Made by a program: the position numbers and the translations under genes. From Rhodoferax mekongensis (GTDB lineage: Bacteria; Pseudomonadota; Gammaproteobacteria; Burkholderiales; Burkholderiaceae_C), in the NCBI RefSeq assembly GCF_032191775.1, contig NZ_CP132507.1, forward strand, positions 955,001 to 1,019,000: 64,000 bases of DNA, given 5' to 3'. Below, piece after piece: positions 5,467 through 45,512 of this stretch; the stretch's first letter is position 1; the number at the start of each line of letters is the position of its first letter. The notes beneath the pieces are model-generated. The model did not search any database. It was not told where the DNA came from and saw only the letters and a list, made by a program, of their open reading frames with translations.

Positions 5467-5484
5467 TTTGTGAAGATACCCGCC

Positions 5485-6708
5485 ATGACAAGCGCTAACC
5501 CGACCTACCCCTCCGAGCAAAGTGGGCCCGAAGCCCGAACCCTCCCCCTCGCGGGCATCCGCGTTGTTGAATTCACCCACATGGTCATGGGTCCTACGTG
5601 CGGCATGACGCTGGGCGATTTGGGGGCTGAGGTCATCAAGGTCGAACCCTTGGCAGGCGACAGTACGCGTAAGCTGTTGGGCAGTGGCGCGGGCTTCTAC
5701 CCGCTGTTCAACCGCAACAAGAAGAGCATTGCGGTGGACCTCAAGAGCGCAAAGGGCCGTGAGATTGTGCTCAAGCTGATCGCCACGGCCGACATCGTGA
5801 GCGAGAACTTCAAAACCGAGACCATGCAAAAGCTGGGCTTGGACTACGCGTCTTTGAGCAAGCTGGACCCGCGCCTGATCTACGTAAGTCACAAAGGCTT
5901 TCTGCCCGGCCCCTACGACCATCGCACCGCGCTGGACGAGGTGGTGCAAATGATGGGCGGCCTGGCCTACATGACCGGCCGCCCGGGCGACCCGCTGCGC
6001 GCAGGCTCCAGTGTGAACGACATCATGGGCGGCATCTTCGGTGCGGTGGGCGCCATGGCCGCACTCATGCAGCGCCAGCAAACCGGCAAGGGCCAGGAGG
6101 TGCAAAGCGCGCTGTTTGAAAACAACATCTTCTTGGTGGCCCAGCACATGATGCAGTTCGCCGTGACCGGCAAAGCCGCCGCGCCCATGCCCGAGCGCAT
6201 CTCGCCTTGGGGCATTTATGACGTGTTCAGCGTGAAGGACAAGGAGCAAATTTTTCTGGCCGTGGTGGGCGATGGGCAGTGGAAAACCTTTTGCGAGGCC
6301 TTTGCCTACGCCGACCTGTTTGCCGACCCGCGCGTCACCACCAACAACGACCGCGTGCTGGCGCGCAGCTGGCTCATCCCAGAACTGCGCACACGCCTGG
6401 CGCAGTTCAGCCGTGCAGAGCTGTCACAGCGCTTTGAGCACGTGGGCCTGCCCTTCGCGCCCATCACCGATCCACAGCATTTGTTTGACGACCCGCACCT
6501 GCAAGCCACCGGCGGCTTGGCACCCATGGAGCTGCCGGATGGCCGTCAGACCCAAGTGCCCTTGTTGCCACTGACGCTGGGTGGTGAGCGCCTGGGCCTT
6601 CGCTTGGACCCGCCCAAGCTGGGCGAGCACACCGACGCGCTGCTGCAAAGTCTGGGGTACAGCGCGGACGAAGTGGCGGCGCTGCATGCACAAGGCGTAG
6701 TACTATGA
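5485..6708 (+). CDS. CaiB/BaiF family III CoA-transferase
   Basis: About 407 residues, a normal length. Family III enzymes move CoA between acyl groups through an aspartyl intermediate. Seen here are LAGIRVVEFTHMVMGPTCG near the N-terminus, DLGAEVIKVEPLAGD, and the likely catalytic Asp (about residue 179) in AGSSVNDIMGG. The ATG at 5485 has GAAG nine bases upstream; a GTG at 5470 would add five residues. The substrate is unknown. The partners may be in central or aromatic acid metabolism, but nothing adjacent decides this. The stop codon TGA falls within the start of a family A repeat, so the last residues may be repeat-derived. Confidence 0.9.
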   Translation: MTSANPTYPSEQSGPEARTLPLAGIRVVEFTHMVMGPTCGMTLGDLGAEVIKVEPLAGDSTRKLLGSGAGFYPLFNRNKKSIAVDLKSAKGREIVLKLIATADIVSENFKTETMQKLGLDYASLSKLDPRLIYVSHKGFLPGPYDHRTALDEVVQMMGGLAYMTGRPGDPLRAGSSVNDIMGGIFGAVGAMAALMQRQQTGKGQEVQSALFENNIFLVAQHMMQFAVTGKAAAPMPERISPWGIYDVFSVKDKEQIFLAVVGDGQWKTFCEAFAYADLFADPRVTTNNDRVLARSWLIPELRTRLAQFSRAELSQRFEHVGLPFAPITDPQHLFDDPHLQATGGLAPMELPDGRQTQVPLLPLTLGGERLGLRLDPPKLGEHTDALLQSLGYSADEVAALHAQGVVL

Positions 6709-6750
6709 AAAATATAGCGGTTTGCGCATATCTGGCGTGCGCTAGAGGCC
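6702..6750 (+). repeat. Dispersed repeat, family A (copy 2)
   Basis: ACTATGAAAAATATAGCGG, then TTTGCGCATATCTGG, then GTGCGCTAGAGGCC. It fits the family A pattern with the AGCTGCT block degraded. It carries the stop codon of the CoA-transferase, and its final GGCC is also the first four bases of the family C hairpin that follows. Confidence 0.65.
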
Positions 6751-6836
6751 TGAGCGGCAGTGCGGCCTGCTCCGTGTCCCCCGCCCGCGTTGCGGGCTCC
6801 TCCTTGACCTGCGCAGACCGCACTGCCGTTCAGGCC
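6747..6836 (+). repeat. Family C hairpin element (copy 1)
   Basis: A 90-bp inverted structure. The left arm GGCCTGAGCGGCAGTGCGG (6747-6765) pairs with the right arm CCGCACTGCCGTTCAGGCC (6818-6836) at 18 of 19 positions. Between them lies the core TGTCCCCCGCCCGC, GTT, GCGGGCTCCTCCTTG, which itself can fold as CCCGC/GCGGG. The core recurs at 44570-44611 and 44709-44758, with entirely different arms each time. It fills the gap between the CoA-transferase and a LysR gene. Confidence 0.8.
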
Positions 6837-6850
6837 TCCCGGAGCTAGCC

Positions 6851-7798
6851 ATGGACAAGCTCAAGCAACTCGAATCCTTCGTCTCGGTCGCCACCCGTGG
6901 CAGCTTGACCGCAGCCGCCAATGCCGAAGGCGTGGCCCCCGCCATCATGGGCCGTCGGCTTGACGCGCTGGAAGAGCGCCTGGGCGTGAAGTTGCTGATC
7001 CGCACCACCCGGCGCATCACACTCACGCACGAGGGCAGTGCGTTTCTGGAAGACTGCCAGCGCATCATTGCCGACGTGACCAACGCAGAGGCCAGCGTGA
7101 GCGCCGGTGGCGTGAAGGCGGCAGGCCATTTGCGTATTACGGCGCCTGCTGGTTTCGGCCGCCGCCATGTGGCGCCGCTGGTGCCCAAGTTCCGCGAGCT
7201 GCACCCCGATGTGACGATTTCGCTTAACTTGAGTGACCGTGTGGTGGACATTGCGGGCGAGGGCTTTGACTGCGCAGTCCGCGTGGGCGACATGCCCGAC
7301 TCATCGCTGGTGAGCGTGCGCATGGCCGACAACCGGCGCTTGTGCGTGGCCACACCGGCCTACCTCAAGCGTCATGGCACGCCCAAAACGCCCGCCGACC
7401 TGAGCCGCTTCCATTGCCTCACGCTGTCCAGCGACGCATCCCAAACCCGGGGCTGGGCTTTCAAGTTGCCCGCGGCCAAGGGTGAGCGCGCTGACGCAGG
7501 CGAGGTGATTTACCTCAAGCCCGCCGGCCCGTTGGACTGCAGCGATGGCCAGGTGCTGCACGACTGGTGTCTGGGGGGCTACGGCATCGCATGGCGCAGC
7601 ACCTGGGAGGTGGAAAACGAAATCGCCGCAGGCCGTTTGGTCGCGGTGCTGGAAGACTATGCCGCTCCGCCCAACGGCATTTACGCCGTCTTCCCCCAAC
7701 GCAAACACATGCCCCTGCGGGTGCGCTTGTGGATCGACTTCATCAAAGAGCGCTACAGCGCGCCGGGGTATTGGCAACGAACCGTGCTTCGGGATTAG
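6851..7798 (+). CDS. LysR-family transcriptional regulator
   Basis: A 315-residue LysR regulator. The N-terminal winged helix-turn-helix is seen in LKQLESFVSVATRGSLTAAA and the following GRRLDALEERLGVKLLIRTT. The rest is the co-inducer-binding domain, with LRITAPAGFGRRHVAPLVPK and the CAVRVGDMPDSSLVSVRMA stretch typical of the AaeR/DhcR-like subgroup. It is transcribed away from the CoA-transferase end, after a family C hairpin. No divergent target gene is adjacent, so its regulon and effector are unknown. Confidence 0.93.
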   Translation: MDKLKQLESFVSVATRGSLTAAANAEGVAPAIMGRRLDALEERLGVKLLIRTTRRITLTHEGSAFLEDCQRIIADVTNAEASVSAGGVKAAGHLRITAPAGFGRRHVAPLVPKFRELHPDVTISLNLSDRVVDIAGEGFDCAVRVGDMPDSSLVSVRMADNRRLCVATPAYLKRHGTPKTPADLSRFHCLTLSSDASQTRGWAFKLPAAKGERADAGEVIYLKPAGPLDCSDGQVLHDWCLGGYGIAWRSTWEVENEIAAGRLVAVLEDYAAPPNGIYAVFPQRKHMPLRVRLWIDFIKERYSAPGYWQRTVLRD

Positions 7799-7894: not shown

Positions 7895-8503
7895 ATGAAA
7901 ATTAAACGTGTTTTAACCGCAATTGCGTTGGCCGCATCCGCGCTCGGTGCCAGTGCGACTACTACAGTGGGTGGCATCAGCTTCGCGGACAACGCGTTCG
8001 CTGATGCGTTGTACTACTCGTTTGGTAGTTACACCACCTCCGGTGGCACTTTGGCGCAAGTATTGACAGACACCAATCCTGGGACCTATGCGTACTCTCG
8101 CACACCCGGTGCCAGTTTGTTGCTTGGTTTCACCGATAACAATGTGTTCAATGGTGCCGGTGCAGACTTGGCTGTTTTTGAACTCGGCATTGCAGACTCT
8201 GTGAAAGTGAGCTTCGGCGCACAAACATTGTCTTTTCAAACGGTTGCAACGGGTTACACCGCTGGCGGTTATGCGTTGAACGTTGCCTTGGTTGACTTCT
8301 CGGCATTCGGCATCGCTAACGGCGCAAACTTGCAATACCAGTCGATTGGCTTGGATACAGTGGCCCCCGGCGGAACTGTTCCCTCCATTTCGTTGGTGGG
8401 TGCACTGCACGTGGCGGCTGTACCTGAGCCTGAGACATATGCCATGTTGTTGGCTGGTTTGGGCGCGATAGGGGCCCTGGTGCGTCGCCGCAAGCGCGCC
8501 TAA
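7895..8503 (+). CDS. PEP-CTERM sorting-domain protein
   Basis: A 202-residue exported protein. It has an N-terminal signal peptide (MKIKRVLTAIALAASALGASA), a mature part rich in Gly, Ala, Thr and Ser predicted to be beta-structured, and the C-terminal sorting signal VPEPETYAMLLAGLGAIGAL followed by RRRKRA. That tripartite tail (PEP motif, membrane helix, basic end) is cut by an exosortase and is found in strains making exopolysaccharide. The ATG at 7895 has GGGAG six bases upstream, so the GTG-like extension four codons earlier is unlikely. No exosortase gene is in the window. A strong terminator follows. The role of the mature part is unknown. Confidence 0.9.
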   Translation: MKIKRVLTAIALAASALGASATTTVGGISFADNAFADALYYSFGSYTTSGGTLAQVLTDTNPGTYAYSRTPGASLLLGFTDNNVFNGAGADLAVFELGIADSVKVSFGAQTLSFQTVATGYTAGGYALNVALVDFSAFGIANGANLQYQSIGLDTVAPGGTVPSISLVGALHVAAVPEPETYAMLLAGLGAIGALVRRRKRA

Positions 8504-8523: not shown

Positions 8524-8554
8524 AAAAAACCCGCTGAGTTTCAGCGGGTTTTTT
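8524..8554 (+). terminator. Rho-independent terminator
   Basis: AAAAAACCCGCTGA pairs perfectly with TCAGCGGGTTTTTT around a GTT loop, 20 bases after the PEP-CTERM stop. The A-run and T-run make it usable from both strands, so it could also serve the reverse-strand gene at 8633-8929. Confidence 0.93.
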
Positions 8555-43491: not shown

Positions 43492-44520
43492 ATGATCATT
43501 GATTGCCACGGCCACTACACCACGGCCCCCAAGGCGCTGGAAAACTGGCGCAATGCCCAGATCGCCAACCTGTCCACGCCCGAACTGGGCCCCAAGGTGG
43601 CGGACCTGAAGATCAGCGATGACGAGCTGATCGAAACCATCGAATCCAATCAGCTGCGCCTGATGAAAGAGCGGGGCTCTGACCTCACCATCTTCAGCCC
43701 GCGCGCCAGTTTCATGGCCCACCACATCGGCGACTTCAACACCAGTGCCACCTGGGCGGCTATCTGCAACGAGCTGTGTTTCCGCGTGAGCCAGCTGTTC
43801 CCCGACAACTTCATCCCTGCCGCCATGCTGCCGCAAAGCCCCGGTGTGGACCCCGCCACCTGCATCCCTGAGCTGGTGAAGTGCGTGGAGCAATACGGCA
43901 ACGTGGGCATCAACCTGAACCCCGACCCCAGCGGCGGTCACTGGACATCGCCCCCCTTGAGCGACAAGCACTGGTACCCCATTTACGAAAAGATGGTGGA
44001 GTACGACATCCCCGCGATGATTCACGTGTCCACCAGCTGCAACGCCTGCTTCCACACCACCGGCGCCCACTACCTGAACGCGGACACCACCGCCTTCATG
44101 CAGTGCCTGACCAGCGACCTGTTCAAGCAGTTCCCAACGCTCAAGTTCCTGATTCCACACGGCGGCGGCGCTGTGCCTTACCACTGGGGCCGTTTCCGCG
44201 GCTTGGCGCAGGAGTTGAAGAAGCCGCTGCTGGAGGAGCATTTGCTCAACAACATTTACTTCGATACCTGCGTGTACCACCAGCCCGGTATTGACTTGCT
44301 CAACACCGTGATCCCGGTGAAGAACGTGTTGTTCGCGTCCGAGATGATTGGTGCGGTGCGCGGGATTGATCCGCAGACCGGCCACTATTACGACGACACC
44401 AAGCGGTATATCGAGGCGTCCAAGATCCTGAGTGCGGATGATCGGCACCAGATTTACGAGGGGAATGCCCGCCGCGTGTTTCCGCGGCTGGATGCGGTTT
44501 TGAAGGCCAAGGGGCGGTAA
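43492..44520 (+). CDS. ligJ: 4-oxalomesaconate hydratase
   Basis: Hydrates oxalomesaconate to 4-carboxy-4-hydroxy-2-oxoadipate in the protocatechuate 4,5-cleavage pathway. 342 residues, as in Sphingobium LigJ and Comamonas PmdE. The metal site starts MIIDCHGHYTTAPKALENWR (His6, His8). SPRASFMAHHIGDFN, INLNPDPSGGHWTSPPL and IHVSTSCNACFHTTGAHYL are near-identical to the family, and ASEMIGAVRGIDPQTGHYY follows. It is an amidohydrolase-fold enzyme with zinc. Two family C hairpins lie between it and ligK. Confidence 0.95.
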   Translation: MIIDCHGHYTTAPKALENWRNAQIANLSTPELGPKVADLKISDDELIETIESNQLRLMKERGSDLTIFSPRASFMAHHIGDFNTSATWAAICNELCFRVSQLFPDNFIPAAMLPQSPGVDPATCIPELVKCVEQYGNVGINLNPDPSGGHWTSPPLSDKHWYPIYEKMVEYDIPAMIHVSTSCNACFHTTGAHYLNADTTAFMQCLTSDLFKQFPTLKFLIPHGGGAVPYHWGRFRGLAQELKKPLLEEHLLNNIYFDTCVYHQPGIDLLNTVIPVKNVLFASEMIGAVRGIDPQTGHYYDDTKRYIEASKILSADDRHQIYEGNARRVFPRLDAVLKAKGR

Positions 44521-44544
44521 TTTGGTTTTGCGCTGCTCTTGGAG

Positions 44545-44636
44545 GGCTAGTGGTGGCCATGCGTTTTGCTGCGTGTCCCCCGCCCGCTTTGCGGGCTCCT
44601 CCTTGACCTTCGCAAAACGCATAACCACCCCAAGCC
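44545..44636 (+). repeat. Family C hairpin element (copy 2)
   Basis: Left arm 44545-44569 and right arm 44612-44636 pair at 21 of 25 positions; the inner part ATGCGTTTTGC/GCAAAACGCAT is perfect. The core between them is GTGTCCCCCGCCCGC, TT, TGCGGGCTCCTCCTTGACCT, as in copy 1, while the arms are unrelated to those of copy 1. It lies in the 322-base gap between ligJ and ligK. Confidence 0.82.
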
Positions 44637-44685
44637 TTGCCAGCGTTTTTGGATAGGTGGCTGAATGAAGCCAATTTCGTTCGCA

Positions 44686-44781
44686 GCAGCAGAGCAGGGG
44701 TGAGTGCCGCAGTGAAAACAAGGAGGAGCCCGCGCAGCGGGCGGGGGACATGAACGAAGGTACTTGCCCCTGCTCTGCTGC
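44686..44781 (-). repeat. Family C hairpin element (copy 3)
   Basis: Arms GCAGCAGAGCAGGGG plus TGAGTGCC (44686-44708) and the complement at 44759-44781; 20 of 23 positions pair and the outer 15 are perfect. The core, on the minus strand, is ATGTCCCCCGCCCGC, TG, CGCGGGCTCCTCCTTG. It is inverted relative to copy 2 and 49 bases from it. On the plus strand the core gives AAGGAGGAG, a strong ribosome-site look-alike, 21 bases before an ATG in frame with ligK. Confidence 0.82.
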
Positions 44782-44842
44782 AGGTCCAGCGAAAAGCAGG
44801 TCCAGTGAGAAATGCAGCCAGAAATATGAAGGAGTCTTGAAT

Positions 44843-45512
44843 ATGTATGAATTAGGCGTTTGCTACCGCAACATCACCCGCGCAGACCGCGCAGCCGCAG
44901 ATGGCTTGGCCGCCTTGGGCTCTGCCACCGTGCACGAAGCCATGGGCCGCGTGGGCTTGCTCAAGCCCTATATGCGCCCCATCCAGAGCGGCGTGCAGGT
45001 GTCCGGCACCGCAGTGACCGTGCTGCTGCAACCCGGCGACAACTGGATGATGCATGTGGCGGCACGGTGATATCGTGGTGGCCACGGTCACGGCAGAGTG
45101 CACCGACGGTTTCTTCGGTGACTTGCTGGCGACCAGCTTCCAAGCCCGCGGCGCCCGCGCGTTGATCATTGATGGCGGTGTGCGCGACGTGAAAGAGCTG
45201 CAGCGCATGGGCTTTCCCGTGTGGAGCAAGGCCATCAGCAGCAAGGGCACCATCAAGGCCACCTTGGGCTCGGTCAACATTCCTATCGTGTGTGCCGGCA
45301 TGCTGGTGACCCCCGGTGATGTGATCGTGGCAGATGACGATGGCGTGGTGTGTGTGCCCGCAGCCAAAGCCGTTGCCACGCTGGCCGCTGCCCAAAAGCG
45401 TGAAAGCTTCGAAGGCGAAAAGCGCGAGAAGCTGGCCGCCGGCGTGCTGGGGCTGGACATGTACAAGATGCGCGAGCCCCTGGCTGCGCTGGGTTTGAAG
45501 TACATCGACTGA
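44843..45512 (+). pseudogene. ligK: 4-carboxy-4-hydroxy-2-oxoadipate aldolase, disrupted
   Basis: The RraA-fold aldolase (LigK/PmdF) that splits the hydroxy-oxoadipate into pyruvate and oxaloacetate. The first frame (44843-45070) encodes [20 protein letters not shown] to [10 protein letters not shown] and then stops. The second (from ATG 45054, in another frame, to 45512) resumes at [20 protein letters not shown] and carries the catalytic [12 protein letters not shown] and the normal end. About six residues that link VAA to GDI in relatives are missing, as if roughly 17 or 20 bases were deleted. The halves overlap by 17 bases, so coupled translation of two fragments is conceivable. Ribosome site AAGGAG precedes the first ATG. 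Confidence 0.85.

Follow-up and report, generated by a model that had tools for sequence, protein, structure and literature searches.

Three hairpins of a Rhodoferax genome are probably copies of a non-autonomous, protein-coding palindromic repeat that behaves like RPE

Introduction

What are three hairpins that share an exact core, are each closed by long complementary arms and differ in the sequence of those arms? The question is raised by one 64-kb stretch of a 3.89-Mb Rhodoferax genome (throughout, "the window" means this whole stretch). A sequence-only reading had proposed that the core is conserved and the arms are unrelated between copies, that the complementarity of the arms reflects either selection for structure or the copying of one arm from the other by template switching, and that no described element has this design. 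Palindromes that code for protein have been reported in Rickettsia first, as the Rickettsia palindromic elements (RPE; Ogata et al.), and in Wolbachia next (PMC10969869, PMC3733652, PMC2229807); the accessible part of PMC3733652 makes no mention of Rhodoferax, Polaromonas or Comamonadaceae. Here, we ask what the three hairpins are, what keeps their arms paired and which known systems they resemble.

Results

Three copies in the window

The three hairpins are present where they had been reported, each with a length of ~94 bp (Table 1), and the shared core is exact in all three, lying at 44574-44605 (+) in copy 2 and at 44719-44750 (-) in copy 3. Compared with dinucleotide shuffles, the folds reach z-scores of -8.5 for copy 1, -4.6 for copy 2 and, on either strand of copy 3, -5.0 and -7.4. 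The covariance model of the family, R1, finds these three elements only in the 64-kb window, its fourth match being copy 1 on the opposite strand. Copy 1 is intergenic and antisense to both of its neighbours, which are a CoA-transferase-like gene (5470-6708 +) on one side and a LysR-type gene (6851-7798 +) on the other. Further along, at 8524-8554, the window contains an ordinary terminator-like hairpin with a 14-bp stem and A and T runs, which follows an ORF ending at 8503. Copies 2 and 3 are, as previously described, mutually inverted with 49 bases between them and located between ligJ and ligK; when this locus is aligned with L061/L154, a single copy is found there, the alignment being poor.

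Table 1. Coordinates of the hairpins and of the neighbouring genes in the window
Feature	Position	Strand	Basis
Copy 1, whole hairpin	6745..6838	- (structured, AAGGAGGA, strand)	R1 99.8 bits on -, 31.3 on +
Copy 1 core, on the strand of the sequence-only reading (complement of the structured strand)	6775..6806	+	exact core match
Copy 2, whole hairpin, first half of the inverted pair	44544..44637	- (structured strand)	R1 96.8 bits
Copy 3, whole hairpin, second half of the pair	44687..44780	+ (structured strand)	R1 68.7 bits
Composite of copies 2 and 3, 5' ends of both structured strands facing	44544..44780	.	pair geometry
ligJ-like gene upstream of the pair (name from the sequence-only reading)	43492..44520	+	ORF context
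ligK-like gene with its own Shine-Dalgarno sequence at 44829-44834 (name from the sequence-only reading)	44843..45512	+	ORF context

A side remark of the sequence-only reading was that copy 3 provides ligK with a super ribosome-binding site. AAGGAGGAG does lie 21 bases upstream of an in-frame ATG at ligK; however, this spacing is long, the motif is buried within the hairpin and ligK has, by eye, its own AAGGAG eight bases upstream of the ATG that starts MYELGV. As ligK carries its own Shine-Dalgarno sequence, the remark is unsupported and almost certainly wrong. The frame of copy 3 that corresponds to the VKEEP-type frame described below runs open into the ligK frame, with the frame start only ~6 codons before the element. 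The ligK-like gene itself switches frame at 45054-45070, with MYELGV...VAAR in one frame and HGDIVVATV... in another, a sign that either the gene is a pseudogene in this strain or the sequence contains an error. Copy 3 is a gene-edge case, and no window copy lies clearly inside a gene; for this reason, in-frame insertion in conserved proteins is invisible from the window.

Distribution of the family

In this genome, the exact core occurs in 13 copies and the reversed core in none. Using a covariance model built on 72 diverse copies, 33 copies were found at E < 1e-6, and the 34th match has an E-value of 1.09. By an open-frame criterion, 11 of the 33 are intragenic (one of them weak and doubtful), 4 lie at gene edges and 18 are intergenic. 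The exact core is found in 21/61 genomes of the genus and in 9/397 of the family, and the model matches 49/61 genomes of the genus at E <= 1e-4, 66/150 genomes and 58/126 genera of the family at E <= 1e-3, and 4/120 genomes and 3/79 genera of an order sample at 1e-4, all of these tallies including the window's own genome and the model E-values being rough. Copy numbers from these genus, order and family searches are lower bounds, as the model scored at most 69, 35 and 28 candidates per genome, respectively. Plasmids and phages searched with copy 1 gave no match; in Rfam the window gives tRNA only, and in six loci every match fell below the gathering score.

Anatomy of the unit

Read on the complement of the strand used in the sequence-only reading, here called the R strand, the unit has the order arm - GCGCAGGTC AAGGAGGA - tip stem-loop - GGGG GACACGGAGC - arm, and its ~94 nt fold into a long variable stem (25 pairs) that leads through a purine-rich internal loop to a tip stem, which is short and also variable. 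The internal loop is nearly fixed in sequence (GGTMAAGGAGGA / GGGGGACAC), the exceptions being four of the own-genome copies examined (e.g. AAGGGGGAG and AAGAAGGAG) and two of the three copies of genome G161. What had been described as a conserved core is conserved above all in the unpaired GGTMAAGGAGGAG and GGGGGACAC, the least variable parts of the unit, whereas the GC tip stem changes with compensation, both among the copies of this genome and in a comparison of 23 genera (the best-scoring locus from each of 23 genomes, with a motif filter applied). Similarly, the arms of the three window copies are indeed unrelated, but genus-wide the arms are related and divergent, and many share GGAGCCTGGGCGGCAGAGCGTTCTGC...GCAGAACGCTCTGCCGCCCAGGCTCC. 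Among 146 distinct copies (those with 60-base flanks after duplicate removal, from a source listing of at least 120 stretches), the arms pair from approximately position 6 to position 31 outside the core, after which pooled pairing falls towards chance. Five loci in two genomes of one genus from another family of the order (L307, L309, L311, L313 and L314 in G465 and G512) have long arms, a different 12-bp tip stem and the same internal loop. The structured strand also carries GGA motifs that may be CsrA-like.

Constraint on the fold and on one strand

Folding the flanks of a genome-wide set against controls, the check that had been proposed for the hairpins, was strongly positive for pairing. 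For covariation, we used 72 of the 131 elements (of 146) passing a pairing filter, which raises the percentage paired in this set by construction. Double changes fill 550 cells compared with 147 after shuffling, the covariation score is 0.605 compared with 0.153 for shuffled and at most 0.118 for slid arms, and changes affecting both members are seen in 25 of 25 arm pairs compared with 20.3 in shuffles. At one fixed site in hrpA, 11 orthologous copies give 23 double-change cells versus 6.5 in shuffles and 9 arm pairs versus 4.4. The copies are related by descent and not independent, and these counts and those that follow overstate significance.

The imperfect pairs distinguish the two strands. 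On the strand of the sequence-only reading, A.C outnumbers G.U by 194 to 28 (139 of the 146 copies, positions 9-25) or by 250 to 53 (all 146 copies, positions 9-30), compared with a background A.C:G.U ratio of 1.48 when arms from different copies are paired. Given that an A.C pair corresponds to G.U on the opposite strand, G.U pairs are 5-7 times commoner on the AAGGAGGA strand. The bias is found in copies with R as the coding strand (77 to 17; 48 copies), in copies antisense within genes (15 to 2; 6 copies) and in intergenic copies with both neighbouring genes on the opposite strand (41 to 6; 28 copies), and is weak in one small context (8 to 6; 5 copies). Because it is present in coding, antisense and intergenic contexts, a transcription-linked mutation bias is insufficient as its cause. 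The G.U excess implies that the R strand must fold, and must do so as a single strand; combined with the covariation at a fixed site, it argues for a constraint on one single strand. In three intragenic copies (L015, L026 and L052) the replacement of one arm, resembling gene conversion by a different copy, has left the two arms poorly paired.

In-frame copies in genes

A first gene finder, for which codon usage was trained on the window and an open frame was required, so that its copies are stop-free by construction, placed 57 of the 146 copies within long open frames. The R strand is the coding strand in 51 of these 57, and 48 use one and the same frame, GTC AAG GAG GAG CCC GCN NNG CGG GCG GGG GAC ACG GAG CAG, or VKEEPAxRAGDTEQ. 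In a stricter test, 228 distinct cores were assigned to genes from 240 bases of flank on each side with the interior ignored. By this flanks-only test, 63 of the 228 copies have coding flanks on one strand, none of the 63 has a stop inside the element, and in 62 the flanks are in the same register, the exception being L132, in which they are in different frames. The frames of the 62 in-register copies are VKEEPAxRAGDTEQ in 48, two antisense frames in 9 and 3, and a second sense frame in 2. Translational bypass, as in byps, was set aside on the basis of this absence of stops.

A typical core is open in five of its six frames, and the sixth, an antisense frame, is closed by TGA. All nine intragenic copies that use this frame have the R-strand GTC changed to GTA (TGA to TTA), a variant found in 22 of 165 copies outside genes; independent GTA events are fewer than nine, because the copies are confined to a small number of genes (those examined include mpl and hrpA) and may share descent. 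L053 has lost the TGA through arm copying instead.

HrpA, Mpl, PutA and ElaA are among the housekeeping proteins that host the element, and Pfam domains span the insert or lie on both sides of it (Mur_ligase_M, DSBA, Aldedh, FemAB_like, DNA_pol3_alpha, Pro_dh, Arabinose_bd and Pyr_redox_2). Alignments to the best available protein structures give two matching blocks with the insert between them, at residues 158-160 of 3eag for Mpl and near residues 51-53 of 5z6n for ElaA. Names such as hrpA, mutL, thiG, cbiA, murD and imuC are presumptive assignments by motif. At least in hrpA, direct pairs 1.5 kb apart represent two insertions within one gene. Judged from the sequences, the element is protein-coding when intragenic and is predicted to contribute a short hydrophilic peptide, with the frame kept open.

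Empty, occupied and inverted sites

At the hrpA site, for which 30 of 53 matching genomes were compared, 11 loci have the element in the usual frame, 2 have a shorter tip, 2 have it inverted, 9 are short (66-93 nt), 5 contain a member or relative of a second family of palindromes and 1 contains another insert. At mpl, 30 of 60 genomes were compared and 28 parsed: the element is in the usual frame in 13, inverted in 2, absent in 9 (18 nt) and intermediate in 4. In the inverted loci (G047 and G054 at hrpA; G003 and G049 at mpl), the core is flipped with the outer arms unmoved, and ImuC-like and PutA-like genes also have both orientations at one site. Compared with L120, the palindrome of L132 (-) extends ~30 bp further into the host flank and its left flank is an inverted copy of the right, likely reflecting a fresh template-switch event, and in L053 an arm has been copied over the core edge. 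Arm extension, arm copying and core inversion in place are as expected of polymerase template switching between arms, for which arm homogenisation and spacer inversion are described outcomes (PMC8604942) and which has been linked to the maintenance of hairpins (PMC8794818). Thus, selection for structure and template-switch arm copying, which had been put forward as alternatives, are both supported, and the absence of any relation between arms, on which they had been founded, is not.

Two hrpA sites examined for a target-site duplication show none that is evident, the length of the insert differs between loci at one site, and a third in-frame hrpA insert (L181) folds no better than shuffles and is not claimed as a palindrome. 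That the same site is used in many species, in hrpA and in mpl, suggests that movement is rare or old; if so, the constraint in place needs a reason beyond a transposition filter.

Inverted pairs and a second palindrome family

In all 30 distinct close inverted pairs, including that of copies 2 and 3, the R-strand 5' ends face each other; the opposite arrangement is absent among the close pairs collected, and one tandem was seen. In other genera, the minus-then-plus order recurs among the matches listed in at least five pairs of G128 and at least four pairs of G465/G512, with a possible further tandem among those of G134. By eye, the spacers of the pairs are not conserved.

The second palindromic family has the loop TCCTCGTCGCGWAGCTCAATNTCGTCA / CTCGTCGCGWAGCTCAATNTCG and copy-specific complementary arms, is found at the same hrpA site and elsewhere, and gives 16 matches in 6/61 genomes; in a relative, L187, the stem is nearly perfect and has more than 30 pairs. 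The loci concerned are L187, L173, L176, L182, L189 (hrpA) and L236-L251, and several copies are clustered within a few kb on contig 277 of G021, contig 8 of G049 and contig 13 of G014.

Discussion

Combining the anatomy, the covariation and the reading-frame data, we suggest that the three hairpins are probably copies of a non-autonomous, protein-coding palindromic repeat that is RPE-like in behaviour. Its movement would most plausibly involve a single-stranded intermediate: copies would spread via a single-stranded form of the R strand, either RNA or ssDNA, in which the fold together with the internal loop would be recognised by a putative factor, and this filter would keep the pairing while the sequence drifts. 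Within genes, survival would be limited to insertions that leave the frame open and whose added loop the protein can tolerate. Once in place, the arms would act as inverted repeats, and polymerase template switching would occasionally copy arm onto arm or flip the core.

A single-strand polarity and one geometry in 30 of 30 inverted pairs would also be expected if these were REP/REPIN-type repeats moved by RAYT, a Y1 HUH transposase, on ssDNA hairpins, and a Y1 gene is present in 54 of the 61 genomes of the genus, with one match in most of them. Y1, however, accompanies a family match in 44 of 49 genomes, is present in 10 of the 12 genomes that have no such match, and is missing from G030 and G051, two incomplete MAGs that have at least 34 and at least 47 family matches. 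The own genome's sole Y1 (RAYT-like) match is a gene of 231 aa (G000:C1:1452570), and the Y1 loci, L192-L202, cover ten other genomes. Around these 11 loci there are no strong hairpins (score >= 13), a weak negative since the same finder caught window copies 1 and 3 and missed copy 2. A REP unit is a palindrome of 20-40 nt with a GTAG tag at its base; here, the units have 94 nt and the tag is found in 24 of 146 copies at best (T at the second position). A link to RAYT by co-occurrence or neighbourhood is unsupported, searches of the genus genomes by Y1 co-occurrence and neighbourhood found no transposase or other mobilising gene associated with the family, and movement by RAYT is in our view very unlikely. 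Alternatively, template switching alone could maintain the complementarity of the arms without selection on structure, and the arm extension in L132, the arm copying in L053 and the core inversion, together with the arm homogenisation and spacer inversion published for this process (PMC8604942), are in its favour. Such purely mutational palindromes would predict neither the 5- to 7-fold excess of G.U on one strand nor the nearly fixed internal loop nor the sharp end of pooled pairing ~31 positions from the core, and this explanation is highly improbable.

The covariation at the fixed hrpA site could also reflect a structured RNA that is useful to the host, i.e. a small RNA or mRNA element in which the AAGGAGG of the loop would be the binding site of a protein or of the ribosome and selection would retain the copies where they are. 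The recurrence of the internal loop in the 23 best-scoring loci examined, from 23 genera, is in agreement with such a function, as is the ~80-nt Bordetella transcript BprJ1, which overlaps the BRE repeat. However, the host genes are by eye without a common theme, copies lie on coding strands, antisense and in intergenic DNA, sites are empty or short in relatives, and no Rfam family matches at its threshold. We consider this function unlikely and favor the RPE-like repeat.

More tentatively, the RPE-like repeat may be part of a wider picture in which mobile elements across the Burkholderiaceae inherit a fold more than a sequence: (i) one single strand, as RNA or ssDNA, would be the working form, (ii) a nearly fixed purine loop with a Shine-Dalgarno-like AAGGAGG would be retained while the stems drift as long as they stay paired, (iii) single hairpins would enter protein genes in-frame and 5'-to-5' pairs would enter intergenic DNA, and (iv) the core would flip in place. 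We think this picture possible, and less than even in its chances.

Rickettsia and Wolbachia are intracellular and hard to manipulate. With the family described here, RPE-type behaviour is now found in betaproteobacteria, in Rhodoferax and in other genera of its family. The empty, occupied and inverted versions of one site in relatives make movement of the element, tolerance of the peptide and the origin of new protein loops testable, and the G.U polarity indicates the working strand and thereby limits the candidates for the enzyme that mobilises it.

Several known systems share traits with the family. The bacterial MITEs with ORFs, such as ERIC and Correia/NEMIS, are likewise short repeats that are non-autonomous and whose open frames become fused to genes (PMC2229807), and differ in that neither fixed terminal inverted repeats nor a target duplication were seen here. 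In the coding palindromes of Nematomorpha mitochondria, a stringent hairpin and protein coding are kept together as well, but both arms encode conserved protein regions there (PMC6649704), whereas here the palindrome is an added insert. REP/REPIN repeats with RAYT resemble the family as dispersed palindromes with inverted pairs and a probable single-strand recognition; the units described here are much longer and coding, and no association with a Y1 transposase was found.

Two systems are close enough to make the earlier statement that no described element has this design too strong. The Beta-proteobacterial repeat element BRE (Hot et al. 2011) is GC-rich and ~90 bp long, with partial copies of 40-60 bp, and has been reported in Polaromonas, Rhodoferax, Delftia, Acidovorax and Bordetella; some copies lie wholly inside coding sequences and a BRE region gives an ~80-nt transcript (PMC3110155). 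It thus shares with our family the length, the bacterial family and the presence of some copies in coding sequences, and that remark is the only report of in-frame palindromic repeats in Comamonadaceae that we found in the open-access literature. In Bordetella, BRE forms tandem arrays with high sequence conservation (PMC3110155), head to tail, whereas the loci examined here have 1 tandem versus 30 inverted pairs, and the accessible part of its description contains no reading-frame analysis. From a comparison of descriptions, BRE may be an older name of the same family.

The RPE are palindromes of ~100-150 bp that form long stem-loops, comprise several families and are found in-frame in conserved proteins and also in intergenic DNA (PMC10969869, PMC2229807). 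Our family likewise (i) is palindromic with a long stem-loop, its 94-nt units with 25 paired arm positions being slightly shorter than RPE, (ii) lies in-frame in unrelated conserved genes, with 62 of 63 copies in register, no stops and Pfam domains on both sides, (iii) has a frame with a conserved peptide, VKEEPAxRAGDTEQ in 48 of 62, and (iv) is accompanied by a second palindromic family, with another loop, in the same group of genomes (two families looked at here). It differs in belonging to another class of bacteria and in that the internal loop is its least variable part and the stems covary freely. By analogy, then, the family appears RPE-like in its behaviour, a likeness of kind for which we claim no descent from a named RPE family, and the strand polarity, the pair geometry and the in-place inversion observed here set it apart from RPE as these have been described.
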